From Candidatus Desulfarcum epimagneticum (GTDB lineage: Bacteria > Desulfobacterota > Desulfobacteria > Desulfobacterales > CR-1): a stretch of 64,000 nt of DNA. The notes beneath the pieces were generated by a model. The model made no database searches, had not been told where the DNA came from, and was given only the letters and a program-made list of their open reading frames with translations. Positions 2,982 through 34,080 of the stretch are shown here, piece by piece; within the stretch, counting starts at the first letter, position 1; each line of letters begins with the position of its first letter. The DNA is taken from assembly GCA_900659855.1 (NCBI GenBank), contig CAACVI010000023.1, positions 1 to 64,000 on the forward strand. Direction: 5' to 3'. A program made the translations under genes and the position numbers.

Positions 2982-4262
2982 ATGACCAAAGAGCAGAGAA
3001 TGGATGTGGCGGTTTTTCGTTACGGTGTTATCAGTGATTTTGTAAACGGGCCAAGCCTGTCCCGTCAGGAAAAGCGGAGGCTTTTACAGGGCAAAAGCGA
3101 AAAAAAATGGCGGATACCCTTTTCTGAAAAGACCCGGATCAGCAAAAGCGGCATATTGCGATGGATTCGTCTTTACGAAAAAAGCGGCTGTGATATCCGA
3201 TCATTGTATCCCAAAGTCCGCGCGGACAAGGGAAAAAGCAGGGTCATAGATGATGACACGGCGCTGGGTCTGGCTGAGCTGAGGAAACAGTTTCCCAAAT
3301 CGACTGTGGCCGCTCTGATTGAAAAAATGCGCAAGGGAAAATCGGAGGCTTTCCGGCGCCCGCTTTCCCCGTCCACGGTTTACCGGTTTTTGAATCAGCG
3401 CGGGCTTATGGACATGACCCGGAAAACCCCGGAGGACAGGCGCAAGTTTGAGGCGGAGATGCCCAATGATTTATGGCAGAGCGATGTCATGCACGGACCC
3501 AAAGTTCTTGCCGACGGCAAAAATAAAAAGACTTATCTGATCGCCATCATAGACGATCATTCCAGGCTGATCGTTCACGCGAAATTTTATTTCTCAGAAA
3601 ATCTGGTCAACTATATGGACGCGTTTCAGGACGCGCTTTTGAAGCGCGGCCTGCCCCGAAAACTCTATGTGGACAACGGCGCGGCGTTTCGCAGCGTCCG
3701 TCTGGCTTATACCGCCGCCTCATTAAATATCGCGCTTATTCGCGCCCGGCCGTATAAACCCCAGGGAAAGGGAAAGATCGAGCGGTGGTTTAAAACCGTG
3801 CGGTCGGGTTTTTTGCCTGACTTTCAAGGAGATACGATCAATGATATCAATTCTGCGCTGACCCGCTGGATCGGGACCCAATATCACCCAAAGAAACATG
3901 GGGCCACAGGCCAGAGTCCTTTCGAGCGCTTCACCGCCCATATGGAATGTTTAAGAGCCGCTCCCGCAAATCTGAAAGATCATTTTCGAATCACCGCAAG
4001 ACGCAGGGTGGCCAAAGACCGGACCATCACCTTAAACGGCAGACTGTATGAGGGGCCTGTGGCCCTTATCGGCAAAAATGTGGAGCTTTGCTTTCATCCC
4101 GATGAGCCTGATTCGGTGGAGATTAAATATAAAAGCAGGTCTTTTGGAAACGCGTCGCCGGTCAACCTTGCCGTCAACTGCAGGGTTAAAAGAGCCAAAA
4201 ACACCCATGCCGACATGGAGCCCGCCCCGGGTTCCAGTTATCATGGCGGAAGTCTTTTATAG
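2982..4262 (+). CDS. DDE-type integrase/transposase, IS481/TniA-like
   Basis: This 426-aa protein has an N-terminal helix-turn-helix region (SKSGILRWIRLYEKSG, and a second about 115-150 with SPSTVYRFLNQRGL). The retroviral-integrase-type catalytic core follows, with first Asp in LWQSDVMHGP, second Asp in LYVDNGAAF, and Glu in QGKGKIERWFKTV, the expected D-D-E pattern. The C-terminus has the beta-barrel-like tail (RTITLNGRLYEGP). It should cut and join the element ends. The stop is ten bases before the partner ATPase, so the two are co-translated. It appears intact. Confidence 0.85.
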   Translation: MTKEQRMDVAVFRYGVISDFVNGPSLSRQEKRRLLQGKSEKKWRIPFSEKTRISKSGILRWIRLYEKSGCDIRSLYPKVRADKGKSRVIDDDTALGLAELRKQFPKSTVAALIEKMRKGKSEAFRRPLSPSTVYRFLNQRGLMDMTRKTPEDRRKFEAEMPNDLWQSDVMHGPKVLADGKNKKTYLIAIIDDHSRLIVHAKFYFSENLVNYMDAFQDALLKRGLPRKLYVDNGAAFRSVRLAYTAASLNIALIRARPYKPQGKGKIERWFKTVRSGFLPDFQGDTINDINSALTRWIGTQYHPKKHGATGQSPFERFTAHMECLRAAPANLKDHFRITARRRVAKDRTITLNGRLYEGPVALIGKNVELCFHPDEPDSVEIKYKSRSFGNASPVNLAVNCRVKRAKNTHADMEPAPGSSYHGGSLL

Positions 4263-4271
4263 GGAGGCCGC

Positions 4272-5078
4272 ATGGATAATCACAGGGTTTTTTTCAGTTT
4301 AAAAAAAGAGCCGTTTATCTCGGATTTAAAGCCGAATGAGATGCTTGAAACCCATGAGCTGATATCGGTTCAAAATCGCTTTGACTATGCTGTGGGACTG
4401 GGAGGCATCGGTCTTGTCACCGGCGAGATCGGAAGCGGAAAATCAACGGCTTTGCGTTACAGCGCCGCCATGCTTCACCCTTCCGAATATCGCTGCGTCT
4501 ACGTGGTGGCCTCATCAGGTTCCATCATTGAGCTTTACCGGCAGATCATATCAAAGCTTCAGATATTTTTGTCCACCAACTCCAAAGCCTTGATGACGGA
4601 CATGATTCGTAAAGAGATCAAAAAACAGGTCCTCGGGAAAAAAATAAAGCCGGTTTTGATCATAGACGAAGCGTCATTGCTGAGGCTGGAGGTCTTTGCC
4701 GAACTGCACACCATCACCCAGTTCGAAAAAGACTCCAAACCCTGGCTGCCCGTCATATTGGCGGGGCAGTCCAACCTGATTGACAAATTGATGTATCGGG
4801 GCTCCGGCCCCCTGGCGTCAAGAATTATTGCCCGAAGTCATCTGGAAGGGCTTAACCTGGATATGATGCGAAAATACCTGGCCCACCACCTGGGACTTGC
4901 CGGAGTGGAGACAAATCTTTTTGATGACACCGCCGCAAGGGCCATACACCAGGGCTCCGGGGGTCTTTTGAGAAAGGCCAACCACCTGGCAAGGGGAGCT
5001 CTTATAGCGGCGGCGGCCCAAAAATCAATGACAGTGAAAGCGGATCACGTCAGACTGGCTTCCACTGAAATCTTTTGA
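4272..5078 (+). CDS. ExeA/TniB-like AAA ATPase, transposition partner
   Basis: 268 aa. The Walker A motif is GEIGSGKSTALR (about residues 51-62), Walker B is PVLIIDEASLL, and sensor-type residues follow in LAGQSNL. Such AAA proteins resemble ExeA in sequence but act with Mu/IS481-like integrases, as MuB or TniB do, in target choice and transposase activation. The ATG follows GGGAGG. The gene is complete and ends just before the right non-coding end of the element. Confidence 0.8.
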   Translation: MDNHRVFFSLKKEPFISDLKPNEMLETHELISVQNRFDYAVGLGGIGLVTGEIGSGKSTALRYSAAMLHPSEYRCVYVVASSGSIIELYRQIISKLQIFLSTNSKALMTDMIRKEIKKQVLGKKIKPVLIIDEASLLRLEVFAELHTITQFEKDSKPWLPVILAGQSNLIDKLMYRGSGPLASRIIARSHLEGLNLDMMRKYLAHHLGLAGVETNLFDDTAARAIHQGSGGLLRKANHLARGALIAAAAQKSMTVKADHVRLASTEIF

Positions 5079-5645: not shown

Positions 5646-5865
5646 GAGTTTTATTCGCCTGGCCCTGCCGCTCTGCCGCTTTATCCTCATTAATTTTAAT
5701 TGATAACGTCATTATTTATCTCCACCAAGTCAATTATGGTAAGTCAAATAGGGTCGAACCAAGATAACAACCCGTAAATTTTGAGTTGCACATCCAATTA
5801 TAAGTTTTATTCGCCTGTTCCTATTTCCCATTTCATTATTTTATTGGCCTGCCCCTATTTTTGTC
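5646..5865. repeat. Cluster of short repeats, copies D, E and F
   Basis: TTTTATTCGCCTGGCCCTG (near 5650), TTCGCCTGTTCCTATTT (5811-5827) and GGCCTGCCCCTATTTTTGTC (5846-5865) are variants of one motif in the same orientation. The last encodes the final KIGAG of the AIPR gene on the minus strand. Between them, 5587-5840 has no gene. Confidence 0.55.
5727..5801. repeat. Diverged duplicated segment, copy 1
   Basis: This segment (AAGTCAATTATGG, then GTCGAACCAAGATAACAA, CCCGTAAATTTTGAGTT, CATCCAATTAT) aligns with 9178-9238 with about one mismatch in five and one short insertion. The two copies bracket the AIPR gene and its insertion element on either side, in direct orientation. Confidence 0.5.
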
Positions 5866-6657
5866 CTAAATGCTTTGATTATCAAATCTGTTTCACCTTC
5901 TGATTTGTACTGTTTTTTATCAAGTTCAATACCTGAACTTTCAAAAATATTTTGAGCTAATTTAAATATCTTTAAAGATTCTTCTTCATTGAGAAGTTTA
6001 TGCTTAAATTCATCACAGGCTGAATTAAGTTTTTTGCTATTAAACGGTGAAAGATCTTCTCCCATCGCAATAAGACGAACAAGCAGCATTAAATGAAAAC
6101 GAGCTTTTTTAAGTGAAGATTTAAGGTCTCCACTCCTAAAAAATTGTTCAATTCTATAATATGTTAAGGAGCTTAAATAATATGGGGAATATTTATGATC
6201 CTCATTGAATATTTGACCACTAAACCTTTTAACGATAGTTCCATAATAGCCTGAAACAAGATGTGGAGAGTTTAAAAACATTGAAGCAAATGATTTAATT
6301 TGTATAGGTATAGAGATAATTTGCGTTTTTTTGATACCTGTATCAGAATTATATTGTTGAGATCGCCTCTCATAATATAGGGAGAATTGTTTACTTTCTG
6401 CACTATAATATAGCTCTAATTTTTTCTGAAAAATGCTAAGAGCTTCTAATTGTTCTGTTTTAACTTCAGTCTGACTATTAGTAGCAAGTGTAATACTTGT
6501 TTTGATATCTTCATTATCAGTTACAACAATTTTAATGGGAACATTAACATTTTCGACACCTTGAATATTTTGACAATCATGTAATACATGGCTTGTTTGG
6601 CAACCATTCACAACTTGATAATCACGAATTGTAAATCTGTTTCCTGCAGGTGTTATT
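5841..6657 (-). pseudogene. AIPR-type abortive infection protein, C-terminal part (split by IS4 element)
   Basis: The fragment carries NGCQTSHVLHDCQ, the signature that follows the central domain in AIPR (abortive infection phage resistance) proteins, and continues about 255 aa to KAFRTKIGAGQ. The frame upstream of it, reading through the target-duplication copy at 6648-6657, gives TPAGNRFTIRDYQVVNGCQT, which connects directly to ...VVASSI on the other side of the insertion element. AIPR proteins are sensors or effectors of phage defence whose mechanism is incompletely known. The last six residues derive from repeat copy F, so the natural C-terminus may be altered. Confidence 0.8.
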
Positions 6658-8130
6658 CAATGTCATTAACTTAAGCAATGGGTTTGTAGTTTTGGTAAAA
6701 GGCCCTGGGCCTGATTTTATGTTTTCGCGGAAAACTTCTTCCGGGGCGAATGGGTTCGATTGTCTCAACGAAAATATGGTGAATGCCGGATATTAGTTTT
6801 TCGACCGCCTTGGCCGGCTGATTGAACAATAAAACCATGGCGATTTTCATCTTGGAAAGGGCTTGGGTAAAGTTGATCTGATAAGGATGTTTTCGGCCCC
6901 TGGTTTTATTCCTGATCTGTTTTTTGACCGGATGCGCCGTCATAGCAGTGAGATTTTTGGATAAAACCTTTGAATGGAAGTCCTGATAAACAGACAAAAC
7001 GGACTTTCCGGAGAAATTTTGAACCTCGATCCGGCATTTTAAAGCTTTGTAATCTTCTTCGACGGGCCATCGCAAATGGTACAGATCTTTGAATATATGA
7101 ACGGGAAAGGCTTGACCGTCGGTTAAGGATGTGATCAGAATTTCCGTTTCGCCGTTTTTCAGTTCCACCCGGATCAACCTTAATTTCAAAGGCTTGATGT
7201 CCAGGCCCATCTCTTTGCACTGGGAGATTGAGGAGGACGGGGCCTTTAAGCGGATAATCTTTTCCTTTTTGCCGGATTTGGAGAACTTTTGGATTATTTT
7301 CCATTTTTTTGATATTCGGGCGCAGAAATTGGCGTTGAGCGATAATATCAAATTGAAAAGCCAGTAGGCTGGATAGCCGCGATCCAGAAGAATCAGGTCC
7401 TGGGGCAGGAGATTCAGAAAATGATCCGCCGCCAGCTCCCTTTCACCGTTCTCAAGCGGGCTGATAGCGGCGTGGATTGTGGTTTTATTGATGACATCGA
7501 ACATCTGGGAAATTCTGGCCATGGGGCGGGGTTTGCCTTTTGTGGGTTTCAGGACCCCGAAATGATCGGTGATCTCTTTTTCATGGGGAAGGGCCAAGGT
7601 AGAGCCGTCAATGGCCAGCAGGTTAAATCCGCGCCATGTTTCAGGCGACATGTTTTCATAAAAGAAGCGGTTGGAGAGCCGATTGAGTTCTATAAAAGCC
7701 TCGTGTTTAAGTTTTTTTCGGGCCTTGCACAATGCGGCTTTTGAGACCATGCGTTCAAAACCGTCCAGATGAAGCATGGTTTTATAAAAACGATCCAGTT
7801 CATCCTGATAGGATCCTTTGGGCAGGCTTAAGAAATAATGGATCAGTGTGGGGAATGTGAGAAGTCTGTTTCTCTGGAAATCTTTTTCAGAAAATCTGTG
7901 TTTTTGAAGAAAATCATGAGAATGAATGATTTTATTGAGATTTTTGAAAAGGTTGGCACAGATTTTGCAAAGCAATATCCGTGCCGTGGCGACGTGACTT
8001 TTCAACTTTTCTTGACATTTTTTTCTCCTTTTAGCAAAAGAATGGTTTGAAAACTTTAAAACAGAAATATCATAACTGCCTGAAAAATCAATAAAAATAT
8101 TCATTTTAATCGCTTAAGTTAATGACATTG
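6658..8130 (-). mobile_element. IS4-family insertion sequence
   Basis: The element is 1473 bp. Both ends carry the perfect 19-bp inverted repeat CAATGTCATTAACTTAAGC (6658-6676, and in reverse complement 8112-8130). It is flanked by an exact 10-bp target duplication, AGGTGTTATT, at 6648-6657 and 8131-8140. Perfect ends, an intact transposase and an intact duplication all point to a recent, probably still mobile insertion. Confidence 0.95.
6671..8104 (-). CDS. IS4-family DDE transposase
   Basis: This 477-aa transposase fills the element. The catalytic motifs are LLAIDGSTLALPH (first Asp), LILLDRGYPAYW (second Asp) and YHLRWPVEEDYKALK, the Y-R/W-E-K signature with the catalytic Glu. The N-terminus (FPTLIHYFLSLPKGSYQDELDRF region) is typical of the family. 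The gene starts 26 bp inside the right end and stops within the left inverted repeat. No frameshift is visible, so it should be active. Confidence 0.9.
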   Translation of the reverse strand: MNIFIDFSGSYDISVLKFSNHSFAKRRKKCQEKLKSHVATARILLCKICANLFKNLNKIIHSHDFLQKHRFSEKDFQRNRLLTFPTLIHYFLSLPKGSYQDELDRFYKTMLHLDGFERMVSKAALCKARKKLKHEAFIELNRLSNRFFYENMSPETWRGFNLLAIDGSTLALPHEKEITDHFGVLKPTKGKPRPMARISQMFDVINKTTIHAAISPLENGERELAADHFLNLLPQDLILLDRGYPAYWLFNLILSLNANFCARISKKWKIIQKFSKSGKKEKIIRLKAPSSSISQCKEMGLDIKPLKLRLIRVELKNGETEILITSLTDGQAFPVHIFKDLYHLRWPVEEDYKALKCRIEVQNFSGKSVLSVYQDFHSKVLSKNLTAMTAHPVKKQIRNKTRGRKHPYQINFTQALSKMKIAMVLLFNQPAKAVEKLISGIHHIFVETIEPIRPGRSFPRKHKIRPRAFYQNYKPIA

Positions 8131-9036
8131 AGGTGTTATTGACGAAGCAACAACAGTCACTCCATTGTTAAGAACGCAAAATAAATCAAACTTCGATTCC
8201 TGTAGTGTCTTTTTTATCTTTTTATTTACAGGGTTATTTCCTTGAAAGTCTCTAACATTGTCATCAAAAATATTATGAATGGTTTTATTCTCATCTTGAA
8301 TCAATTTTAGATATTCATTAAACGGAATAACACCTAAATATGCTTCAGAGACACCTTCAATATCAGGCAAGGTGATTCTATTTTGAAAAGTTAACGTTGA
8401 TGAAAGTTTATTTTTTGTTTCATGATATAGCCGCTGTATTTCAGAAGCACCTAAAGCTTGAATCAAAACATTTTCAAAAATACCTATATTTTCAATTTCT
8501 TGTGCCCCTGAATTTAAAATTGCCTTTAAATTTTGATCTTCAACCCATTTTCCTGTACATACATAATAGAGTTTGCAGATCGGTCTACGGTTAACCATGT
8601 ATGAAGACATTGAGATTAATGCTTCCCATATTTCTTTCATCTTTCGTATTTTCTCATTTTGAACAAGTTGTGGTTCATCACTAAGGAAATCCTTAACCCC
8701 ATGAATAAAACTACCAATCCTTGAGCCATCAAATTTCGATGAGGTTTTTGTTTGTATAAATGTAATATCAGCATCTAAATGTGATGTTGTTTCTACAACA
8801 TCACGAAGTTCATCTTCGTCTGTTATCATTCGTCCATTTACAATAATTGCCATTCCATCAATTGCTGAATCACCACCCGATCCTGTATGGACATCACCCA
8901 AATCAAAGCTTCCCCGAAATAGTTTTGAAGTTACAGAAAAGTTAGAGAAATGCTCAAATTGTTTTGATTCATCTAGTGCTTCAATTTCGTATTGAGATGA
9001 GAATGTATCTAAAAGTGATTTTGTAATTTTATCCAT
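8131..9036 (-). pseudogene. AIPR-type abortive infection protein, N-terminal part
   Basis: The frame begins MDKITKSLLDTFSSQYEIE and runs about 298 aa to VLNNGVTVVASSI, then enters the IS4 element. The segments GGDSAIDGMAIIVNG and FIQTKTSSKFD resemble the nuclease-like N-terminal region of AIPR proteins, where a D...QxK arrangement is expected. Rejoined with 5841-6657 the protein is about 570 aa, close to the family size. The low GC content, unlike the GC-rich genes after 10 kb, suggests the locus was acquired horizontally. No partner defence gene is left beside it. Confidence 0.8.
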
Positions 9037-10073: not shown

Positions 10074-11300
10074 CTATTCCAAAACCAAAATATCAGCCAC
10101 GACTTCCCAAAGGTATTTCACCTGGAGATTGTCCATGCCATGCTCTTTTTTGACGCTGTTGAGCTGGCCGTGGCAGCTGTGGCAGGGGACCACGATCATA
10201 TCGGCCCCGGCGGCTTTGATCTGGTCTATCTTTTTCCGGCCGTAATGAATCCGCTCCCGGTCGTGGCCGGTCACCAGGGTTCCCCCTCCGCCGCCGCAGC
10301 AGAACTGATGCTCCCGGCAGGGGTGGAGGTCGGTCCAGTTCTCAAAGCACTGGTCCATGATCCATCGGGGCTCTTCGTAATAGCCGTGTCCGAAACGTTT
10401 TTCGGATTTCCGGCCGTAGTTGCACGGGTCGTGGTAGGCGGCCCGGACATCAAGCTTTGTTTTGTCCAGCTTGATCCGGCCGTCTTTGATATATTCCATC
10501 AAAAGATCGAACACCGTGTAGGTTCCGAATTTTTCCAGGGCTTCGGGGCGCCATTTTTCAAGACCCGACCGGGTCGCGAGGTAGGCGTGCCCTCATTCGG
10601 GCCACAGCAGATTTCTGGCCCCCAGCCGCTCCATATTGTCGGCCACCCGGCCCGCCATGATTTCCATGGACTCGTCGTCGCCGGTGAAAAGGCCCCAGTT
10701 GGTTCCTTCCCAGTTCACGGCCGGGACGGTCCAGTCCTCCCCGGCCGCGTGGAAGATTTTCCACCAGGGCTTGAGGTCTTCGGTGTGGGTGTTGACCAGC
10801 TTGTTGTGGATAGTGGTCAGAAGGTTGGCGTTTTGTTTGTCGATGGGAATGGAAAGGGACTCAAACCCTTTTTCGTCGGCGATTTCCTCCCCCACATCCT
10901 CAAGTATGAACTCAAAATCCGGCTGCGGAAGGCTGAGGTTGTTTCCCGTTTTCAAAGCCGCCTCAAGACCTTTTCCCAGCACGCCGGGAATGGCGTCTTT
11001 TTCCCGCAGGCCCCGGATATTTCGGACGATGTCTGAAATCCGGACCTCCGCGGGGCATCCGTGGGCGCACCGGTCGCACATGGTGCACATCCAGGGCCAT
11101 TCCGACTCCACAAGGGCGTCTTTTTGGCCAAAGGAGGCCATTCGGACGATTTTTCGGGGATCGAAGCCATGCAGGCCGGACAACGGGCATGAGCTGGAGC
11201 ACAGCCCGCATGACACACATTGGTTTTGAAAAAAGGCGGCGGGGTCAAAGGCGTCCCGGTCCAGGGAATCGACGCTTCGGGGCGCCGGGTGGTCAGTCAT
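10074..11300 (-). CDS. HdrD/DsrK-like iron-sulfur subunit, predicted selenoprotein
   Basis: Read through the in-frame TGA at 10593-10595 this is 408 aa. The N-terminus has two [4Fe-4S] motifs (C28, C31, C34, C38 and C72, C75, C78, C82), as in HdrC. The C-terminal half has a CCG domain as in HdrB (C293, C334-C335, C373, C376). The TGA is codon 236 in LLWPE-U-GHAYLATR, where I expect Cys (PECGH) in this family from memory. A hairpin with a GGTC loop follows the TGA. The frame is exact on both sides and reading is protein-like throughout. It should move electrons between the HdrA-like subunits and a disulfide or quinone-type partner. It is the last gene of the dapA-hdr operon and overlaps the preceding gene by 8 bases. 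Confidence 0.8.
10562..10595 (-). promoter_or_regulatory. Candidate bacterial SECIS element
   Basis: On the minus strand, the stop-like TGA (10593-10595) is followed after about 18 bases by GACCCGGTCGGGTC, a stem with a GG-containing apical loop about 23 bases from the TGA. Known bacterial SECIS hairpins place a loop guanine 16-37 bases after the UGA. The element lies inside the coding sequence, as expected in bacteria. Confidence 0.55.
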
Positions 11301-12912
11301 GGGGTTTTTCTCCCGTTTTGAGGCCGGACAAAGGCCCCATTTTTGAAAGCGTTTTTTGAAAATCTTCGATGATATGGCGGCAGACCCCGCCCATGTTTGA
11401 GGCCAGAGACTCCGTCCGGATCCGTTTGGGGTCCACGCCGATTTGTTCTAAAAATCCGGCGGCGCGCGCCGCTTTTTCCCGGGCGTCGGAATCCCCCCGG
11501 CCTGAATGGCAGTTCCCCTTGTGGCAGGTGAGGATCAGCGCCCCGTCCGCGCCGTTTTGAAAGGCGGAGTAGAGGCCCTCGGCGGATATGGCGGCCGCGC
11601 ACGGAACCTTTTTCACAGACAGCCCGGGCGGAAAAGACCCGTCCGGGGCGGACTCCAGGGCCGGGACGGCGGAGCGCTCGCAGCAAAACGCCGCGATGGC
11701 CGGCGCGCCGTCTAAATCAAAATCGTTTGGGTCAAAGCCGTTTAAGGAGATGGCCTTCCCGGGGCAGAGCGCGGCGCAGGCGCCGCATCCGGCGCACGCC
11801 TCTTTGATGATCACGGGCCGGGGGGCGATGGCCACGGCCCCGTGGGGGCACGAGCGCAGGCAGGTCAGGCAGAACACGCAGGCGCCGGGATCGATTTCGG
11901 CGAAAGGGGAGGGCCGCGCCGGACATTCGTCCACGGCCCCGGCTCGCAGAAGCGCCGCGGCCGTGTCCCGGGCATGGCCAGCCGGGCTTTGGATTTTTCT
12001 GGACGCCCCCACGGCGAATATCCCCTTCCGGTTGGTCAAAACCGTCAAACGGTGAACGTTGTCGGCCTGGATAAAACCGTTCGCGTCCGTTTCAAGGCCC
12101 ATGATCCGGGAAAGGGTTTTCAGGTTTTCAGACGGCCCCGCCGCCTCGTCCAGGACCGTGATGTCGGGCGACATCTCAAAGGGCTCTTTGGAGATTTCAT
12201 CCACCCAGCTCAGGCGCGTCCGGCCCGTCTCATCCTGGCCGATGTCCGGGCCGCGGTTCGTGAAGCTGAAAAACAGGGCGCCTTTCCGCCGGGCTTCCCG
12301 GCACAGCGCCTCGGCGTTTTTCCCGGAGACTTTGAGATGGTCATAAAAAAGGCATGCCCGGATGTTTTTTTCGCGCTGAAGCGTCAGGCACAGGGAGATC
12401 ATCTCGGAAAAAATCGCGGGGTGGCATTCATGGGCCAGGCCGGCCAGAAACGCCACGGTTTGGGCCCCTTCAAAAAGCCCTGGATTTTCTTTGGCCCGGG
12501 ACAGGGAAAGGGTCCGGGAATTTTCGGCCAGGCCGTGGGCGTCAAAAAGGGCGCGGCGCTGCTCGTCCTCGGCGATGATGACGGATTCGGCGCGAAAAGC
12601 GGTCTTTTCCCGTCCGGAGTCGATCAGGACGTCAAAATTCCCCGGGGTCCCGGAACCGCCTTCTTTGGATGATCCCCCTTCGGGTAAAACAGATAAAACA
12701 GGGGAGCACGAGACCAGGCGGCCGGCGATTTGGGAGACGGCTTCGGGGGCCTCTTTCGCGGCCGGGGCGTCGGGGGAGGACAGGATCACGGGGGGCATAT
12801 TATGTTTGGCCAGCGCCGCCGCCGTTTCCGCCGCGCATGGGCCGTCTCCGATGACCAGCGCCCGGATCCGGGAATCATAATTCCGGAAATTTTCAGGACT
12901 GTTTTTTTTCAT
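11293..12912 (-). CDS. HdrA/QmoB-like subunit with ferredoxin and MvhD-type domains
   Basis: 539 aa. The N-terminal 340 residues resemble the FAD fold of HdrA/QmoB but with a weak dinucleotide motif (ALVIGDGPCAAETAAAL). Two [4Fe-4S] motifs follow (CVFCLTCLRSCP and CAGCGACAALCP). The C-terminus is MvhD/FlpD-like, with FCCERSA, a VPCAAAI segment and DGALILTCHKGNCH. This order matches QmoB. It likely forms an electron-bifurcating or confurcating module with the genes on both sides, overlapping the upstream gene by 20 bases and the downstream gene by 8. Confidence 0.8.
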   Translation of the reverse strand: MKKNSPENFRNYDSRIRALVIGDGPCAAETAAALAKHNMPPVILSSPDAPAAKEAPEAVSQIAGRLVSCSPVLSVLPEGGSSKEGGSGTPGNFDVLIDSGREKTAFRAESVIIAEDEQRRALFDAHGLAENSRTLSLSRAKENPGLFEGAQTVAFLAGLAHECHPAIFSEMISLCLTLQREKNIRACLFYDHLKVSGKNAEALCREARRKGALFFSFTNRGPDIGQDETGRTRLSWVDEISKEPFEMSPDITVLDEAAGPSENLKTLSRIMGLETDANGFIQADNVHRLTVLTNRKGIFAVGASRKIQSPAGHARDTAAALLRAGAVDECPARPSPFAEIDPGACVFCLTCLRSCPHGAVAIAPRPVIIKEACAGCGACAALCPGKAISLNGFDPNDFDLDGAPAIAAFCCERSAVPALESAPDGSFPPGLSVKKVPCAAAISAEGLYSAFQNGADGALILTCHKGNCHSGRGDSDAREKAARAAGFLEQIGVDPKRIRTESLASNMGGVCRHIIEDFQKTLSKMGPLSGLKTGEKPHD

Positions 12913-13996
12913 TGGAATGTTCCGGTTTGTTTTTTTTAGGCGTTTTTTTCATGTATGTTAATGCCTGAAACGCCGCCAAGGCCCCGTCCGCCGAGGACTC
13001 CTCGATGGTCATGGGCCCGGAGACCGTTCCGGCGCAAAAAACGCCCCGGCCGGCCATTTCGTCCCGAAGGGCGTCCGGGAGAAAGCCGGCGTCTTGTTCC
13101 GGCGTGTCCGGGGGAATGAGGCCGTTTAAAAAGGCCGGGGCCCGGGGGGTCATTCCCGCGGACAGGACCAGCAGGTTCGTGGTTTTCTCAAGGGATTTTT
13201 CCGTCTTTTTGTCAAACCAGGACAGGGACAGATTCTTTTCTTCGATTTCAAACACATCGCCGGGAATGGCGCGGATCATTTCAATGTCGTTTCTGATTTT
13301 TTCAAAACGCGTCTCAAAGTCCCGCCCGAAATGCTGGACATCGATGTAAAAAAACGAGATTTCCGTCTCAGGCGACCGATACCGGGTCAAAGCGGCCATT
13401 CGGAGGGCCGAGCCGCAGCAGATCCGGGAGCACCACAAATGCCCCAGGCGCGAGTCCCGGCTTCCCACGCACTGGATAAAGGCCATGCGCGCCGGGGGTT
13501 TTCCGTCCGACGGCCGCAGGGGAAGGCCCTCCGCCCGGATCATTTCCTCAAGCGCCAGGCCGGTGATCACGTTTTCAAATTTTTTGTATCCGTAGGGCTT
13601 TTTTTCCGGGTCAAAGGGCGAAAAGCCCGACGCCGCGATGACGGCGTCGGCGGATATTTCAAGGGTTTCAGGCGCCGCGTCCCCGGGCGAGCGCTCGATC
13701 CGGGCCGTGAATCGCCCAGCGTCCGATTTTTTTTGAATTTCCTTGATCCGGGCGTTTGTGATGATCTCAATCCGGGGGTCTTTTTGGGCCCTTTTCAGGA
13801 TGTCTTCGGCCGCGCACGCGCCGCATTTCACGCATTCTTCGGCGGCCTTGCAGGCCAGCCGGACCCCATGCCCGCCCGGGGAGGGGGCTTTTTCGATCAG
13901 CGTGGAGCCGATGTGTTGTCCGGCCAGCTCAACGGCGGCGGACAGGCCGGCGGGCCCGGCGCCGACGATCAGGACCTGTTTGTCTTTATCCGGCAT
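12893..13996 (-). CDS. HdrA/QmoA-like flavoprotein subunit
   Basis: 367 aa. The FAD-binding GAGPAGLSAAVEL lies at residues 12-24. Cys 49, 55, 58 and 61 form a cluster motif near the N-terminus. The HdrA signature QCVGSRDSRLGHLWCSRICC follows mid-protein. The C-terminal flavin motif GVFCAGTVSGP is present. There is no separate ferredoxin domain, as in QmoA. With the two downstream subunits this resembles QmoAB plus HdrBC, which in some sulfate reducers carries electrons between quinones or ferredoxin and the sulfate-reduction enzymes. No aprAB is in the window, so the partner is unknown. Confidence 0.8.
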   Translation of the reverse strand: MPDKDKQVLIVGAGPAGLSAAVELAGQHIGSTLIEKAPSPGGHGVRLACKAAEECVKCGACAAEDILKRAQKDPRIEIITNARIKEIQKKSDAGRFTARIERSPGDAAPETLEISADAVIAASGFSPFDPEKKPYGYKKFENVITGLALEEMIRAEGLPLRPSDGKPPARMAFIQCVGSRDSRLGHLWCSRICCGSALRMAALTRYRSPETEISFFYIDVQHFGRDFETRFEKIRNDIEMIRAIPGDVFEIEEKNLSLSWFDKKTEKSLEKTTNLLVLSAGMTPRAPAFLNGLIPPDTPEQDAGFLPDALRDEMAGRGVFCAGTVSGPMTIEESSADGALAAFQALTYMKKTPKKNKPEHSNEKKQS

Positions 13997-14019: not shown

Positions 14020-15060
14020 TTAGTATTCGTCGTAGCAAAGCCCCTCTAGAACCGACAAATCCTCCAGGCGGGCGTCGATGTCCACGCCGAAAAATTCCGA
14101 GACCGGCATGATGATCTCCGGATTTTTCGCCTGAACGGTTTTAAGCGCCCCGATCACGGTCTCCAGGCCCTTTCGGGTCATTTTGCCCAGGGGCTGTCTG
14201 CACGGGCCGCAGGGCATTCCCAGGATCCGCATGGCGGTTTTAAAGGCCAGCGGGTTCCGGGCCCGGCACTCCACCTCGCCGAAGGGGGTCTTTTCCCGGG
14301 TTTTCACCGTGACGATGCTGAAAAGGGGGGACAGGGCCTCGTTGAGCGAGCGGGCCTTTTCCGTCTCCCCGGCGTTGAGCAGGCGAACCATTTCGGCGCA
14401 GGCGGCCGGGGCGATGTTGGAGGTCACGGAGATGGCCCCGCCCGCTTTGATCTCAGGATCGGCCATCATCTCGAAGGTCATGGGATCGTCGCCGGACATG
14501 ATCACAAAATCCGGGCCGCAAAGGGACCGGGTTTTTTTCATGTTTTCAGGGTCGCACGTGGCCTCCTTCACCGAGTTGAGGTTTTCAAAGGCGTCATTGA
14601 GCATGGCCAGGTCTTCGGGGAAGAGCTGGGCCCCGGTCCGGCCCGGTATCACGTAGGGAATCACCCACACATCCGGAAGGGCCCGGGCGATGGGGGATAT
14701 GTATTCCCGTCGGATCTCAAGGGAGCTGGGGCCGTTGTAATACGGGTCCACCATCAGAATGCCGTCGGCGCCTGTTTTGGCCGCGTGCTCTGAGGCCGCC
14801 ATCGCCTCTTTGTAGTTGTTGCTGCCGGTCCCGGCCAGGCGCAGGCATTTGCCTTTGGCCTCCGCGATGATGGTCTCCATCACGGCGTGGTGTTCGTCCC
14901 ACGTCAGCACAGGGCTCTCTCCTGTGGTCCCCACGGCCAGTATCCCGTCAATTCCCTGGGATGTCTGGAAATCGACCAGTTTTTGAATGCCTCGGCGATC
15001 GACTTCGTCTCCGGAATCCGAAAACGGGGTGATCAGGGCGGTGTAACATCCTGGTTTCAT
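14020..15060 (-). CDS. dapA: 4-hydroxy-tetrahydrodipicolinate synthase-like (DapA family)
   Basis: The start at 15060 (MKPGCYTALITPF, GGAGG upstream) is preferred over an upstream codon, giving 346 aa. GTTGESPVLTWDEH matches the TTGE substrate loop, VIPYVIPGRTG carries the conserved Tyr region, and LNSVKEATCDP contains the Schiff-base Lys. It would condense pyruvate with aspartate semialdehyde in lysine synthesis. The protein is about 50 aa longer than usual at the C-terminus (SEFFGVDIDARLEDLSVLEG). It may be another lyase of the family, since it leads an operon with Hdr-like subunits 23 bases downstream rather than lysine genes. Confidence 0.75.
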   Translation of the reverse strand: MKPGCYTALITPFSDSGDEVDRRGIQKLVDFQTSQGIDGILAVGTTGESPVLTWDEHHAVMETIIAEAKGKCLRLAGTGSNNYKEAMAASEHAAKTGADGILMVDPYYNGPSSLEIRREYISPIARALPDVWVIPYVIPGRTGAQLFPEDLAMLNDAFENLNSVKEATCDPENMKKTRSLCGPDFVIMSGDDPMTFEMMADPEIKAGGAISVTSNIAPAACAEMVRLLNAGETEKARSLNEALSPLFSIVTVKTREKTPFGEVECRARNPLAFKTAMRILGMPCGPCRQPLGKMTRKGLETVIGALKTVQAKNPEIIMPVSEFFGVDIDARLEDLSVLEGLCYDEY

Positions 15061-15233
15061 AAATGCCTCCCCGGCGGCGCTCTCTTTAAGGACTGCGAGC
15101 TTAAATGGTTTATATATGTCTCTAAAAATCATAAGAAATAAATAAGTTGGACCCGGATGTCAAGAAAAAACGAATGGGCCGCCGCGCCGCGCCCCCCTTT
15201 ATTTCCCTTGACTTTAAGGCCCTTGCGTATTAT

Positions 15234-17775: not shown

Positions 17776-18861
17776 ATGGATATTAAACCGTCTAAACAGG
17801 AATTGGCATGGATATCAGAACAACTGAAAACGATAAGAACCATGTTGTCAAATGATAAGAACCATATTATCGGGATTAATTTGGGCACATCATGGACCGT
17901 CGCAATGACCCGCAAAATGAAAGGCAGGTTCCGGTCCGTTGTCGGTTATCCAAAGGATATTTTGGCTAAAAGCGTGATAAAGGAAGATTATTTAATCGGG
18001 GAAAAGGCGTTGGAAAACGGGGGGGCGCTTTCATTGGTCTATCCGTTTAAACGAGGGGTGATTGACGCGGACGATTCCAAAAATTTTCACGCCGCCTCAG
18101 AAATTTTTTCTTATGCGGTGAGCGGCACCAATCCGGGACCGGACGCCCGGATTTGCTGCGTCATCGGCATGCCGCCCAATGCGCTGTCTGAAGACAAGGA
18201 CCGGGTTTTGGAAATCGCCAGGGAATCCTGCCATCACGCGGCTGTTGTTTCCCATCCTTTTTTGGTGGCGCTTGGAATGGACAGGCTGATCGATTCCATC
18301 ATCGTGGATATCGGCGCCGGGACCACGGATATCTGCGGGTTAAAAGGGGCGCTTCCCGGTCCTCAAGATGAAATCACCCTGTTAACGGCCGGGGAATCCA
18401 TTGACGCCGCCTTGGCGACGGCGATCAGGGACCGGTATCCGGGGGTCTCGCTGACCAAAAAATTAATCTGCGAAATCAAAGAAAAACACGCGTTTGTGGG
18501 GACGGCGCCCAAACCTGTCCTGGTGGAGTTGAGAAAAAGAGGAATTCCTGAAAAATATGACATCACATCTGAAATCAAATTGGCCTGTGAAAGTATTTTT
18601 CCCGATATTATAGACGGCATTGTGTCTGTTTTATCCACCTTTGACCTTGAAAAGCAGGACACGGTTCTTCAAAATATTTATCTTGCGGGCGGCGGGTCCG
18701 GGATCGCGGGAATCGAGACGTTTATTGAAAAAGGATTGGAAGATTACGGCGATGTAAGCGTCCATCGGATTAAAGATTCTGATTTTTGCGGATGCGAGGG
18801 GGCTTTGAAAATTTCCGATTCGGCATTTCTTGATGGAATGAAACTGGAATCGTTAAAATAA
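17776..18861 (+). CDS. mamK: MamK-like actin, copy 1
   Basis: 361 aa. The actin-fold motifs are phosphate-1 GINLGTSWTVA (about residues 34-44), phosphate-2 VDIGAGTTDI and adenosine LAGGGSGIAG. It matches MamK/MreB-type bacterial actins, which polymerise in the cytoplasm and align magnetosomes into chains. The N-terminus has about 30 extra residues before the fold. An AGGAAT site precedes the ATG. The next gene is a paralogue. In Desulfobacterota a second actin (Mad28) accompanies MamK, and which of these two corresponds to which cannot be decided by reading alone. Confidence 0.85.
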   Translation: MDIKPSKQELAWISEQLKTIRTMLSNDKNHIIGINLGTSWTVAMTRKMKGRFRSVVGYPKDILAKSVIKEDYLIGEKALENGGALSLVYPFKRGVIDADDSKNFHAASEIFSYAVSGTNPGPDARICCVIGMPPNALSEDKDRVLEIARESCHHAAVVSHPFLVALGMDRLIDSIIVDIGAGTTDICGLKGALPGPQDEITLLTAGESIDAALATAIRDRYPGVSLTKKLICEIKEKHAFVGTAPKPVLVELRKRGIPEKYDITSEIKLACESIFPDIIDGIVSVLSTFDLEKQDTVLQNIYLAGGGSGIAGIETFIEKGLEDYGDVSVHRIKDSDFCGCEGALKISDSAFLDGMKLESLK

Positions 18862-18878: not shown

Positions 18879-19961
18879 ATGAACGCAGATGAAAAAAAAC
18901 AGACGGGCAACCCGCAAAGCGACAACAGGCAAACCGGCGCTGGCGAGGCGTTTTTGGGGATAGACCTGGGAACATCGCGAACGGCTGTCGTATCAAGCGC
19001 CGGGGCCAGATTCATGTTCAGAACGCTGGTCGGCTTTCCCAAAGACATTATCGCCATGCGCCATGTTCAAAGCGAATATCTCATTGGCGAGGAGGCGCTT
19101 GAAAAAAAGACATCCCTGAATATGAGCAAGCCGCTTGAAAACGGCGTGATCAGAGAAGACCCGACAAAAGAGGACCTGAACGCCGTCAGGTTTATTCTTG
19201 AAAAAACCATCCGGGATTCAAAAACGGGGCCCAGGGTTAAGAAGCATGCCGTGATCGGCGTGCCCTCCGAGGTTTCCATAAAAAACATTGATATCCTGTT
19301 TGATATCTGCCGGGAGTTGTTTGACACGGCCCTGGTGGTTTCAGAGCCTTTTCTTGTGGCTTATTCCGAAAACCGGATTGTGGACGCCATTGTGGTGGAT
19401 ATCGGCGCGGGAACCACAGATATCTGTATTCTGCAAGGCGCCCTCCCCACAGCCAAAAGCCAGATCACATCAATGAAAGCCGGGGATTATATCGACAAAT
19501 CCCTGAAAGCCAGAATCCTGTCCAAACACCCCAATGTTCAAGCGACCCTGAACCAGGTCAGGCTCTTTAAGGAAAAACACGCCTTTGTGGGGAAAAGCTC
19601 CGGGCCCTGCAAAGTAAAAGTCAGGGAAAGAGGCAAACCGATTGAAATAGACATCGCTGAGGAGATCAAGGCGGAATGCGAGGATCTGGTTCCGGATATC
19701 GTGGAGCATATCGAGATGTTTATCAGGAAATTTGATCCTGAAAGACAGGAAGAAGTTTTAAAAAATATTTACCTTGCCGGCGGCGGCTCGCAGATCAAGG
19801 GATTGGACGCCATGGTTGAGGAGAAACTTCAAAGTTATGGCGACGTCAAGGCAACCTGCGTGAAAGATCCCGATTTTGCCGGCTGCCAGGGCGCGCTTAA
19901 AATCACCAGGGAAATTCCCTTAAAGGACTGGGAGAAAATCGGACCGGTATGTCAGAAATAA
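18879..19961 (+). CDS. MamK-like actin, copy 2
   Basis: 360 aa, 17 bases after copy 1 and clearly a paralogue: GIDLGTSRTAVV, VVDIGAGTTDICIL, KEKHAFVG and LAGGGSQIKG line up with the same blocks of copy 1. The two differ mainly in the N-terminal tail, which here is polar (ADEKKQTGNPQSDN). Good AGGAG site. Two filaments with separate dynamics, or a co-polymer, are both possible. This may be the Mad28-type actin. The last 35 bases are partly repeated just before the next gene. Confidence 0.85.
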   Translation: MNADEKKQTGNPQSDNRQTGAGEAFLGIDLGTSRTAVVSSAGARFMFRTLVGFPKDIIAMRHVQSEYLIGEEALEKKTSLNMSKPLENGVIREDPTKEDLNAVRFILEKTIRDSKTGPRVKKHAVIGVPSEVSIKNIDILFDICRELFDTALVVSEPFLVAYSENRIVDAIVVDIGAGTTDICILQGALPTAKSQITSMKAGDYIDKSLKARILSKHPNVQATLNQVRLFKEKHAFVGKSSGPCKVKVRERGKPIEIDIAEEIKAECEDLVPDIVEHIEMFIRKFDPERQEEVLKNIYLAGGGSQIKGLDAMVEEKLQSYGDVKATCVKDPDFAGCQGALKITREIPLKDWEKIGPVCQK

Positions 19962-25524: not shown

Positions 25525-26316
25525 ATGGGCATAACCGGCCAGTCCACGATTTCAAGCATCATCAACCGGGCTTATGGGAAAAAGTACAGGCTTAACCCCA
25601 ATGAATTCATCGCCCCGTCCGGACTTTCCCCATACGGGATAGGTTTAAGGTCCATTGGCGCCTTAAATCCGTTCAGGAGGCTCAAAACGCTTCACAAGGG
25701 TTATCTCATATTGGTCTCGGCGCTGGTTCTTATGTTTCTCAAAGCGGCCATTTCAGTCTATTATTTTAACATGCTTGTCAACACGCAGCAGAACATGCTC
25801 GCGGCCCATGGCAATGTGCAGGCGCTGGTGCAGCGAAGAAACGATATCGCCACCAATCTTTCCAAAGCGGTTCTGGATTATTCAAAACATGAGCGGGGCG
25901 TGTTCACCGCCGTGGTTTCTTTGAGAAAATTTTTCACTGAAAGCGGCGCCGGCGCCGCCGACACCTTAAAACAGCTCCAAAATTATTATAAAACGGCCGC
26001 CGGGGGCGCGGCCCCCCAAACCGGGATCACTGGAAACCCGGATATTCTGTCCGCGTTGTCAAAACTTGTGGCGGTGGCCGAGCAGTACCCGGATTTAAAA
26101 TTATCCGCCAACTTTGAAACCTTGATGGCGGCCCTGGTCCAGGTGGAGCAGGACCTGGCGAAACAACGGATAAAATTCAATCAGGAGGCGAACATATACA
26201 CGACCCTCATAACAAAAGTTCCGGGCAATCTTTTCGCCTGGGTGTTCGGCTTTAAAATCGTGGACTATTTTGAGGCGGATGACCAGGCCAAAGCATTCAG
26301 GGTGATAGGATATTAA
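25525..26316 (+). CDS. mamQ: MamQ, LemA-family magnetosome protein
   Basis: 263 aa. A membrane segment (YLILVSALVLMFLKAAISVYYF, about 55-76) is followed by the LemA helical bundle: FNMLVNTQQNMLAAHGNVQA, RRNDIATNLSKAV and LKLSANFETLMAALVQVEQD, and a C-terminal Phe-rich tail. MamQ is essential for magnetosome membrane formation in known species. The N-terminus has about 50 extra residues. A good GAGGAAG site precedes the ATG. Confidence 0.85.
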   Translation: MGITGQSTISSIINRAYGKKYRLNPNEFIAPSGLSPYGIGLRSIGALNPFRRLKTLHKGYLILVSALVLMFLKAAISVYYFNMLVNTQQNMLAAHGNVQALVQRRNDIATNLSKAVLDYSKHERGVFTAVVSLRKFFTESGAGAADTLKQLQNYYKTAAGGAAPQTGITGNPDILSALSKLVAVAEQYPDLKLSANFETLMAALVQVEQDLAKQRIKFNQEANIYTTLITKVPGNLFAWVFGFKIVDYFEADDQAKAFRVIGY

Positions 26317-27013: not shown

Positions 27014-27942
27014 AACATAACGCCTGCAAAAAATGCATTGATTCGGTTGGAAACGTCAATGTCATCGGCAATGTGCTGATGATCGCCTTAAAGGGATACC
27101 TGGGGGTTGTCGGCGGATCCAAGGGGCTGATCGCCGACGCGATTCATTCCTGCGCGGACCTGCTGGCCACCATTGTCATGATCATCGGGCTTAAGATTTC
27201 AAACCGGGAAACAAGTCGTGAATATCCGTATGGATACGGCAAGGCCGAGCATGTGGTGGCCATTGTCATCTATATCTTCCTGTTTGTCATCGCCGGTTAC
27301 ATTATTTACGAAGGGGTTCTGGCCATTATCGAAGGCAGGGAGATTGTCCCCTGCGCCATCGCCGCGTGGGGGGCGGTCCTGTCCATTTTTATCAACGAGC
27401 TGATGTTTCGGCTCACGCACTGCGCCGGAACCCAGGCGAACAGCCCGGCCATCGTCGCCAAAGCATGGGAAACCCGGACCGATGTGTATTCATCCATCGC
27501 GGTGGTCATAGGCATTATCGGGGCCAGACTCGGATTTCATTTCATGGATCCTTTGGCCGCGGTGGTGGTGGGGCTGCTGATTTTCAGAACCTGTGTTGAA
27601 ATGACCCGGGAAGCCGTCCTTTCCCTGATGGACAGGATCCCCGAAGGTTTCAGCGTCGACGAGCTTCAAAAACGGATCGCCGCCAGGATTCAGGATATCG
27701 TGGTGGACATCGTGGATGTCAAGGTCAGAGACCTGGGGCCGGATCTTGAATATATTGTGAAAGCCATGGTTCCGGACTGCATCAGCATCGCCGAAGCTGA
27801 GAAGGTGAAAGATGAAATTCGAAGAGATGTGTCCGAGCTTGAGGAAAGAAAAACAGTTGTTGTGGTCCAGCTTCTGGCGTTTAACAATGATAAAAAACAG
27901 AATCAGACAGTCATAAAGAGGGAAGCCGATGAAACAGCCTGA
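27010..27942 (+). CDS. mamB: MamB/MamM-type cation diffusion facilitator, first copy
   Basis: 310 aa from a GTG at 27010. The N-terminal CKKC and the segment YPYGYGKAEHV are typical of MamB and MamM. The TM2 metal site DAIHSCAD is complete. In TM5 the pattern ETRTDVYSS keeps the Asp, but the usual His is replaced by Glu. NSPAIVAKAW matches the MamB block NSPAIIANAW that I recall. The C-terminal cytoplasmic domain (about 210-300) is present. It would move ferrous iron into the magnetosome. The MamB versus MamM assignment is uncertain. Confidence 0.75.
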   Translation: MKHNACKKCIDSVGNVNVIGNVLMIALKGYLGVVGGSKGLIADAIHSCADLLATIVMIIGLKISNRETSREYPYGYGKAEHVVAIVIYIFLFVIAGYIIYEGVLAIIEGREIVPCAIAAWGAVLSIFINELMFRLTHCAGTQANSPAIVAKAWETRTDVYSSIAVVIGIIGARLGFHFMDPLAAVVVGLLIFRTCVEMTREAVLSLMDRIPEGFSVDELQKRIAARIQDIVVDIVDVKVRDLGPDLEYIVKAMVPDCISIAEAEKVKDEIRRDVSELEERKTVVVVQLLAFNNDKKQNQTVIKREADETA

Positions 27943-29440
27943 ATTTGAATTTTGCATGGGCCACTTTAAAATAGCGATCGCTGTTTTAGCCGTTTTTATA
28001 GTGATCGTCTTGTATTGGGCCATGTCCACCTGCAAGATGGACCGGGTCAACCAGGAACAGGTTCTCACCCTCGCCGCGGCCGGGGCGCCCGCGGGCGGAA
28101 ATATCACCATGAAGGCCAAAATGACCCACAAGTACTGGGGCAATTGCAATATGTGCCATGTGACCGTTGATGTTCCCAAAAAACCCGTGTCCCAGGTGTT
28201 TCAAGGGCCTCCCATCTCGGTGAGCGCCAAAATGACCCACAAGTACTGGGGCAATTGCAATATGTGCCACCAGGTCTCAGGGGGTCTTAAACAGCGGTTT
28301 GCCCCGGCGCCGGCCGCGAAGGTTGCCGCGCTGGCGGCGGGCGCGCCTCCCCCCATCATGGCCAACGCCAAGCCCACGCATCCCGACTGGGGAACCTGCT
28401 CCAATTGCCACCAGATTTTAAAACCCGGCCAAAGGCGGGGCAGAGCCGCCGCGCTGGCGGCCTTCGCCAAATTTTCCGCCCGCTCCGTCGGGTTGGATCT
28501 TAAAAACGTCAATTCCGCTTTAATGGGAAAATGGGGGCTTTCAGATGAGGAGGGCGTCCTCGTGCTGACGGTTCATCCCGGCTCCATCGCCCAAAAGGCG
28601 GGATTTAAAAAGGGGGATGAAATCGTTCGGTTGAATGACGCCAGAATTGACACCATCCATGATTTTGATATCCAGCTTGCCTTGTCGAAACCCGATGACG
28701 TGGTGAAAGCGGCCATATACAGGGGGAGGAGAAGCAAAAATATTTTTATGGACTTAAAACCGCAAGGCAATCTTGCCGCAGCCACGAGCGCCCCCATGAC
28801 CCAGAACCGGATCGAGACCCTGGCGGAGCGATTCAATGTGCCCAAGACCCAGGCGGCTGTGGAACAGGCCCTGCGGCGGGCGCGGCCCGCGGCGGCGAAC
28901 GTTCCCATGACCCACAACCGGATCGAGACCCTGGCGGAGCGGTTCAATGTGCCCAAAACCCAGGCGGCTGTGGAGCGGGCCCTGCGACAGGCGCGGCCCG
29001 CGGCCCTGGCCAATTCCGGAAAGGTGATTGTGGCGGCCCTGGGGCCGGGCCTGTACAGTCAGACCTCGCTTAATTTTGAGAACAGCCCGTATTTCATTCT
29101 CTACGACCCGGTGACCCAGCAATATAAATCCCTGGTCAATCCAAATTACAACGACACCCGGGGCAATTCCAGACAGACCAGTCATTTGATGGTTGACCTG
29201 GGGGCCTCCAATGTCATCGCGGGCAGTTTCACATCCCGGAGCGCGGACACCCTGAGAATGCTTCGCCTGAATCTGTATTCCGGCGTGACAGGCGTGGTGA
29301 AAGACGTGTTAAATATGTACAAAAACGGACAGATACAGCAGACAAATATTCATGCGACCACAAGAGCCGGTTTTTTGCCGACTTTGCCGACTCCGCCGAC
29401 TCCGCCGGCGCCGGCCGGCGCCCGCGGCGCTATATTTTAA
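27929..29440 (+). CDS. Triple-magnetochrome, PDZ and NifX-like fusion protein
   Basis: 503 aa. One membrane anchor (about 13-32) is followed by three magnetochrome c-haem motifs: C73-C76-H77, C110-C113-H114 and C157-C160-H161. The first two lie in the identical context THKYWGNCNMCH. A PDZ domain spans about 185-278. Then a 37-residue tandem repeat (RIETLAERFNVPKTQAAVE, twice, about 289-362) precedes a NifX/NifB-type iron-cluster domain (KVIVAALGPGLYSQTS, then NLYSGVTGVVKDVL). MamP has magnetochrome and PDZ parts, but I know of no NifX part. It likely oxidises or handles iron at the growing crystal. Confidence 0.75.
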   Translation: MKQPEFEFCMGHFKIAIAVLAVFIVIVLYWAMSTCKMDRVNQEQVLTLAAAGAPAGGNITMKAKMTHKYWGNCNMCHVTVDVPKKPVSQVFQGPPISVSAKMTHKYWGNCNMCHQVSGGLKQRFAPAPAAKVAALAAGAPPPIMANAKPTHPDWGTCSNCHQILKPGQRRGRAAALAAFAKFSARSVGLDLKNVNSALMGKWGLSDEEGVLVLTVHPGSIAQKAGFKKGDEIVRLNDARIDTIHDFDIQLALSKPDDVVKAAIYRGRRSKNIFMDLKPQGNLAAATSAPMTQNRIETLAERFNVPKTQAAVEQALRRARPAAANVPMTHNRIETLAERFNVPKTQAAVERALRQARPAALANSGKVIVAALGPGLYSQTSLNFENSPYFILYDPVTQQYKSLVNPNYNDTRGNSRQTSHLMVDLGASNVIAGSFTSRSADTLRMLRLNLYSGVTGVVKDVLNMYKNGQIQQTNIHATTRAGFLPTLPTPPTPPAPAGARGAIF

Positions 29441-31306: not shown

Positions 31307-31319
31307 ACAGGATTTTTCA

Positions 31320-33152: not shown

Positions 33153-33189
33153 CCGGATAAAAAAAACAAGAAAAAATATTGAAAAGCCA

Positions 33190-34080
33190 ATGAAATTCAA
33201 AGCCAAAACAATCACCAAAGATCAATGGACAGGGTTTATCGTGGTCATTGTCCTTTTTTCCGGCATACTGCTTTACGCCAATATCAAGGGGGCGTCGCCG
33301 CAGCAGGGCCAGGTCCCTCTTCCTGTGTATCCGCCAGGCCCCGCGGCCCCGGCCGGGGTTTTCTCTCCGCCGGTCCAGGCGCCCGCTCCCGCGTCGGCGC
33401 TTTCGCCGGCCGCGACAGCCAAAGCGGTGCAGGAGGCGATCAATGAAGCGGTGGCGGGGGTTCGGCCCTCTATTGTCGCCGTTACCGTTCCCGCCGCCAA
33501 AGTGGCCGGGACGGCCGATCCGTCAGGCTTGACATTTGTGCGGCCCAACCGGACAGGCCCCAACGTCACAGGGTCCGGCGTGATCATAGATCCGGCGGGG
33601 TATATCCTGACGACCTTTCAAACCGTTGGAAAGGCGGAGAAGGTGAAAGTCAAGCTTTACGGCGTCCTTCAAAGCGAATATATGGCTGAAGTGGTCGCCG
33701 TTGACAGCAAAACGGACCTGGCGCTTTTGAAAATTGAAACACCGGGGGTGTACCCGGCGGCCATGATCGGCAATTCGGATTCCATTGAAATCGGGGATAT
33801 CGTATTTGCCATCGGCGCCCCCTATGGATTTTCAAGATCGGTTTCCATGGGGATTGTCAGCGCCAACCGGCGGAAAATTTCCATCAAGGACCGCTGGTAT
33901 CCGGACCTGATTCAGACAGACGCCGCCATCAACAGGGGCGATGACGGGGGGGCGCTGATCAACATCCGGGGAGAGGTGATCGGCGTCAATATGGCCTATT
34001 TTATACCGGGAAACCACTTTACCGGCATCGGGTTCGCCCTGCCCATCAATGACGCGGCAAACTTATTGGGGAGGATGTAA
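33190..34080 (+). CDS. mamO: MamO-like catalytically dead trypsin-like protein
   Basis: 296 aa from the ATG at 33190, with one membrane anchor (about 14-30), a Pro/Ala-rich linker and an HtrA-type fold. The catalytic His is replaced by Gln (Q144 in TTFQTV) and the catalytic Ser by Asp (D252 in RGDDGGAL), while the Asp (D176) is kept. It cannot be a serine protease. In known magnetotactic bacteria MamO is a pseudoprotease that binds metal and helps start crystals. The fold is paralogous to the preceding gene (IQTDA..N.G..GG). There is no TauE domain. The ribosome site is weak. Confidence 0.8.
   Translation: MKFKAKTITKDQWTGFIVVIVLFSGILLYANIKGASPQQGQVPLPVYPPGPAAPAGVFSPPVQAPAPASALSPAATAKAVQEAINEAVAGVRPSIVAVTVPAAKVAGTADPSGLTFVRPNRTGPNVTGSGVIIDPAGYILTTFQTVGKAEKVKVKLYGVLQSEYMAEVVAVDSKTDLALLKIETPGVYPAAMIGNSDSIEIGDIVFAIGAPYGFSRSVSMGIVSANRRKISIKDRWYPDLIQTDAAINRGDDGGALINIRGEVIGVNMAYFIPGNHFTGIGFALPINDAANLLGRM

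Follow-up and report, generated by a model that had tools for sequence, protein, structure and literature searches.

The window, as we call the whole stretch of 64,000 nucleotides that was analysed, carries an hdrD-like gene that almost certainly encodes a selenoprotein; the sequence evidence that its UGA-236 is read as selenocysteine (Sec) is strong. The gene is the last one of an operon encoding a QmoA-like protein, a QmoB-like protein and HdrD(Sec), in that order. According to the explanation which we favor, and to which we assign a probability of roughly 60%, it encodes the terminal subunit of a QmoAB-like complex in which Sec and an iron-sulfur cluster act on a disulfide. Sec coding, cofactor ligands and operon organization can be read from the sequence; the disulfide chemistry of Sec combined with a noncubane cluster is our inference, with the odds slightly in its favor. 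Coordinates of the features are collected in Table 1.

Table 1. Features of the window and of related loci. Positions refer to the window unless a locus or contig is named.
Feature	Position	Strand	Evidence
hdrD-like gene with Sec236, 408 aa	10074..11300	-	translation, domain search, alignment, model
In-frame TGA (UGA), Sec codon 236	10593..10595	-	44 TGA, 16 TGC, 0 other at the aligned site
Predicted bacterial SECIS hairpin, core GACCC-GGUC-GGGUC	stem 10562..10575, loop 10570-10567 starting GG	-	folding, shuffling, compensatory pairs
QmoB-like flavoprotein, C-terminal HdrA half (dicluster ferredoxin) fused to FlpD/MvhD domain	11293..12912	-	profile matches
QmoA-like / HdrA-type FAD subunit	12893..13996	-	profile matches
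DapA-type gene (dihydrodipicolinate synthase family), just upstream of the module	14020..15132	-	profile match
PocR genes	L052 4763-5299; L050 2456-2971; L053 7769-8305; six others		partner search
selD with in-frame TGA (L072)	G000 contig C12 51993-52922		profile match
MamK-like actins, two	17776-18861, 18879-19961		magnetosome island
LemA/MamQ-like	25525-26316		magnetosome island
Magnetochrome-PDZ protein	27929-29440		magnetosome island
Trypsin-like MamE/MamO-like with TauE	31290-33152, 33142-34080		magnetosome island
FeoB	40092-42119		magnetosome island

The selenocysteine codon

The frame runs from ATG to TAG over 408 codons and is interrupted only once, by an in-frame TGA at codon 236. This bears out the proposal of the initial annotation that two apparently separate ORFs form one interrupted frame. 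The default ORF list divides it into pieces of 235 aa (10593-11300) and 146 aa (10074-10514), the latter with a GTG start at 10514 as given by the ORF finder; this is the pair of truncated genes that conventional annotation had been predicted to report. The peptide around the TGA is LLWPE-U-GHAYLAT. A PECGH motif had been expected at this site, and the DsrK/HmcF-type paralogues from the same genome do have Cys at the Sec position (TECGHAY and GECGHAF).

Homologues were taken from 57 other genomes of the same order, from 395 genomes drawn from the phylum and from named public contigs. The codon aligned with codon 236 is TGA in 44 of the 60 homologues and TGC (Cys) in the remaining 16. Thus Sec replaces Cys, as was supposed: all non-Sec homologues have Cys at exactly that site. 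Each homologue of at least 49% identity, among the matches listed, contains exactly one in-frame TGA, which stands at the identical codon throughout the phylum. The same TGA is found on the complete isolate chromosome of Desulfosarcina alkanivorans PL12 (L050), which excludes faulty assembly of a single draft genome as the explanation. In the family tree the window gene falls within an all-Sec clade of 25, and the supported branches force at least four changes between Sec and Cys.

SECIS hairpin and selenocysteine machinery

A hairpin with a G-containing loop had been noticed about 23 bases downstream of the TGA; it is confirmed here, with its GGUC loop beginning 22 nt after the UGA. The family was examined for a hairpin whose first two loop bases include a G, within a fixed stretch 17–38 nt from the U of UGA, and the null model was obtained by shuffling synonymous codons within each gene's own usage. 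Such a G-loop hairpin is present in 35 of 35 Sec genes (8.1 expected; mean energy z -2.84). Among the 11 Cys homologues 2 have it where shuffling predicts 2.9, so that there is no enrichment (mean z +0.29). Taken by itself, the window's own hairpin reaches only weak significance (z -2.0, p 0.05); it is the family that supports a SECIS element. Five family members (L047, L048, L049, L056 and L062) favor another fold when the hairpin search is left unconstrained. Stem positions change in a compensatory manner (A-U/C-G, C-G/U-A, G-C/A-U). Within the stem-loop of the UGHAY-type genes Thr is encoded by ACC in 26 of 26 and Arg by CGG or AGG only, also in 26 of 26. At Rfam gathering thresholds a tRNA was the sole match in the window.

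All four components of the Sec machinery, whose search had been suggested as a check, are present in the genome of the window (3.26 Mb, 99.7% complete): tRNA-Sec (selC, 76.1 bits), SelA (573 bits), SelB (373 bits) and SelD (368 bits). With these genes found, and with Cys in all non-Sec homologues, neither of the observations named beforehand as counting against Sec (a genome devoid of Sec machinery; homologues with no conserved Cys) was made. TGA also serves as an ordinary stop in this genome, because the neighboring qmoA-like and qmoB-like genes both terminate in it. The selD gene has its own in-frame TGA, so that selenophosphate synthetase is probably a selenoprotein as well.

Organization of the operon

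The QmoB-like gene, which has no in-frame TGA, overlaps the start of the hdrD-like gene by 8 nt and is itself overlapped by the QmoA-like gene by 20 nt. The three genes are adjacent in about 18 loci, and the trio occurs in 13 of the 57 other genomes of the same order. Another QmoA/QmoB-like set is located beside aprA on contig C1 of the same genome, and the QmoA encoded there is 31% identical to the QmoA-like protein of the window. In QmoABC the third subunit is the membrane protein QmoC and the genes lie near apr; the third gene of the window is of HdrCB type. AprA and DsrC are encoded in the host genome, hence the host is probably a sulfate reducer.

The DapA-type gene has no counterpart at other module loci and for this reason probably lies outside the module. 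Over 19 orthologous loci the only conserved partner beyond the three module genes is a gene for a PocR sensory-domain protein that stands alone and might regulate the module or sense a ligand; it is found beside the module in 9 of them, and the window locus is without it. Shared ORF clusters on other frames at the module loci were discarded as shadow frames of conserved genes. No gene for a substrate enzyme is encoded beside the module. At one locus (L052 109-4802) the region upstream of the module contains ketoacyl synthase-like, alpha/beta hydrolase, AMP ligase and epimerase genes, a four-gene set which on reading by eye resembles the OleABCD olefin cluster.

The same genome has a second Sec HdrD (L077, on contig C50). 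Its operon (L077 5596-15702) comprises two Sec HdrA genes, MvhD, MTHFR and a partner gene for the MTHFR C-terminal domain, and can be described as a selenium-rich MetVF-Hdr cluster. The TGA of both HdrA genes is within NDC[TA]M-U-[VI]ISPKLVEVG (CxxU).

Domain structure and cluster-binding sites

In the HdrD-like protein Pfam recognizes a dicluster ferredoxin domain together with a single CCG domain. Its two cubane [4Fe-4S] motifs are formed by Cys28, 31, 34, 38 and by Cys72, 75, 78, 82, and the C-terminal CCG domain contains all five cysteines of the noncubane cluster site (Cys293, Cys334, Cys335, Cys373 and Cys376). This is the arrangement of HdrD; the HdrD/DsrK-like identity assigned initially is therefore upheld, the protein being a HdrCB/HdrD-DsrK-HmcF-type subunit. 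In the N-terminal CCG domain Sec236 is the sole conserved ligand-type residue. Residues 156–235 include no Cys, and a second noncubane site of HdrB type was thus not found. The eight cubane and five noncubane cysteines are invariant in an alignment of 32 sequences, and so is residue 236, which is either Sec or Cys; at least 90% of the sequences in the alignment keep His238.

The best NCBIfam matches are all below the cut-off: HmcF (183.6 bits, cut-off 750), TmcB (163.7, cut-off 735) and DsrK (140.6, cut-off 400). GlpC sensu stricto (TIGR03379) gives 33.5 bits at a cut-off of 279.9, so GlpC is a loose name for this protein.

Among known structures EtfD comes closest to the AlphaFold model of the protein (pLDDT 90, pTM 0.89), with Z 26.7 across 366 residues, and residues 158–408 of the model superimpose on HdrB with Z 20–21. 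The profile alignment places Sec236 on Cys581 of EtfD and Cys78 of HdrB, and His238 on His583 of EtfD, with moderate posterior probability; U-G-H is thereby aligned with C581-P-H583. The displaceable bridging cysteines of HdrB are Cys81 and Cys234 (PMC13083937), and for that reason Sec236 is probably located, as far as the alignment tells, at the Cys581/Cys78 position and not at that of the bridging Cys81. It had been suggested that the Sec is next to the catalytic cluster. This holds by homology, Sec236 being the only ligand-type residue of the domain opposite the noncubane one, but not as a measured distance.

Comparison with known systems

Sec members of this family have been catalogued before, whereas the literature has little on the QmoA-like/QmoB-like/HdrD(Sec) operon type or its substrate, and no description of the module was found in open-licence papers. 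Proteins with a UGH motif are listed as 'Fe-S oxidoreductase (GlpC)' with 5 cases in PMC1794560; the motif is also given in PMC13188914 ('Fe-S oxidoreductase/GlpC, UGH'), with reference to a 2004 paper on the prokaryotic selenoproteome. By its motif, LLWPE-U-GHAY, the window protein is a probable member of this family, whose reference is WP_174406253.1 / PTHR43551. The catalogued proteins and that of the window alike have Sec in U-G-H of a Fe-S oxidoreductase of Deltaproteobacteria, Cys homologues and a position near hdrA/frhD-type genes. The published operons, however, have the order glpC-hdrA-frhD-frhG-frhA with a hydrogenase, while the window has a split QmoA-like/QmoB-like pair and no hydrogenase.

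PMC2702500 reports a Sec HdrD (HdrD4) in Desulfobacterium autotrophicum HRM2. As described there, it likewise combines HdrC and HdrB domains in one soluble Sec protein of a sulfate reducer. The HdrD-like subunits of membrane complexes (DsrK, HmcF and TmcB) share the domain order and the Cys pattern, but they contain Cys in place of Sec and work with membrane subunits, whereas the window protein is encoded with QmoAB-like flavoproteins. In QmoABC and QmoAB-HdrBC the QmoA-like and QmoB-like subunits are also followed by a HdrC-containing one; the window differs by the absence of the QmoC membrane domain, by the fused HdrCB with Sec and by the 31% identity of QmoA mentioned above. Mycobacterial EtfD (9ojn) and methanogen HdrB (5odc) have both CCG domain folds and the five-Cys C-terminal noncubane site, as does the window protein, but they retain the first-cluster ligands in the N-terminal CCG domain, where the window protein has only Sec.

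Proposed function and alternatives

It is proposed that SelB and tRNA-Sec would read UGA-236 as Sec, guided by the downstream hairpin. Gene order and overlaps suggest that HdrD(Sec) would be the terminal subunit of a soluble complex with the QmoA-like and QmoB-like proteins. The flavin and FlpD subunits would then supply electrons, which the two cubane clusters of HdrD would conduct to its single noncubane [4Fe-4S] cluster. In methanogen HdrB the disulfide is cleaved between two noncubane clusters; compared with it, the first cluster site of HdrD(Sec) would be empty, with one selenolate left. Sec236 and the noncubane cluster may cooperate in binding and breaking, or in making, a disulfide-type bond of a thiol carrier in the sulfate reducer, and the candidate substrates are the DsrC trisulfide or a small disulfide. 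A more general statement, to which we give not quite an even chance, is that the soluble complex is conserved in Desulfobacterota sulfate reducers, is separate from QmoABC and from hydrogenase-linked Hdr, and has one Sec in place of the first noncubane cluster of HdrB, the selenolate and the noncubane [4Fe-4S] cluster making up a two-part disulfide-cleaving site.

Two alternatives concern the codon itself. If the TGA were a true stop, the gene would be a pseudogene or would give two half-proteins translated separately, which agrees with the output of the ORF finder and the GTG start of its second piece; but 44 genes, one of them on a complete isolate chromosome, share the position of this TGA, the protein is conserved on both sides of it, the SECIS is conserved and all other homologues have Cys. 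This reading is contradicted by conservation and was rejected as highly improbable. Still more improbable is a genome-wide reassignment of TGA to another amino acid such as Trp. A frame open through the TGA would by itself fit it, but the TGA stops within the same operon, the Cys (never Trp) of the homologues and the presence of tRNA-Sec together with selA, selB and selD led us to reject it too.

The other alternative accepts the selenoprotein but denies that it is a disulfide reductase: His238 would cap the noncubane cluster, the protein would only relay electrons (say, into the QmoAB-like part from a donor of ETF-like or flavin type, or in the opposite direction), and Sec236 would tune the redox potential or protect from oxidation. 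We consider such a His-ligated, purely electron-transferring role a serious rival, though with a chance clearly below even. It is favored by the rank of EtfD as the best structural match, by the alignment of U-G-H with C581-P-H583 and by the conservation of His238. In EtfD the remaining coordination site of the noncubane cluster is taken by His583, and the cluster is said to be non-catalytic as a result (PMC13083937); if His238 acts in the same way here, the cluster would transfer electrons only. On the other hand, FadF and DgcB, EtfD homologues without the first cluster, reportedly have none of its cysteines. In the present family exactly one of these positions is retained in all 60 sequences, as Cys or Sec, and this points to a chemical role. 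DsrK-type subunits, which we take to act on DsrC, moreover contain the same CGH motif.

The natural Sec/Cys pairs beside the noncubane cluster, at an otherwise invariant site, offer a ready test of the catalytic use of this residue in DsrK/HdrD-type subunits. With the module there may be one more cytosolic path for electrons, in addition to QmoABC, DsrMKJOP and the MetVF-linked Hdr. Since standard ORF calling splits the genes of the hdrD(Sec) family, counts of QmoAB-HdrD(Sec) modules in sulfate reducers are probably too low.

Other features of the window

A magnetosome-type gene island occupies positions 15402-43401 of the window and makes the host probably a magnetotactic sulfate reducer. Besides the genes of Table 1 it contains TPR proteins and several cation-efflux MamB/MamM-like genes. 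In the region 5841-9036 a DDE transposase (6671-8104) is inserted in an AIPR (abortive-infection-type) gene, whose halves (8119-9036 and 5841-6611) match separate parts of the AIPR profile. An integrase-core/Mu-C transposase with an adjoining AAA_22 ATPase (2982-5078) resembles a TniA/TniB transposition pair, and a further Mu-C transposase is found at 45279-46736.
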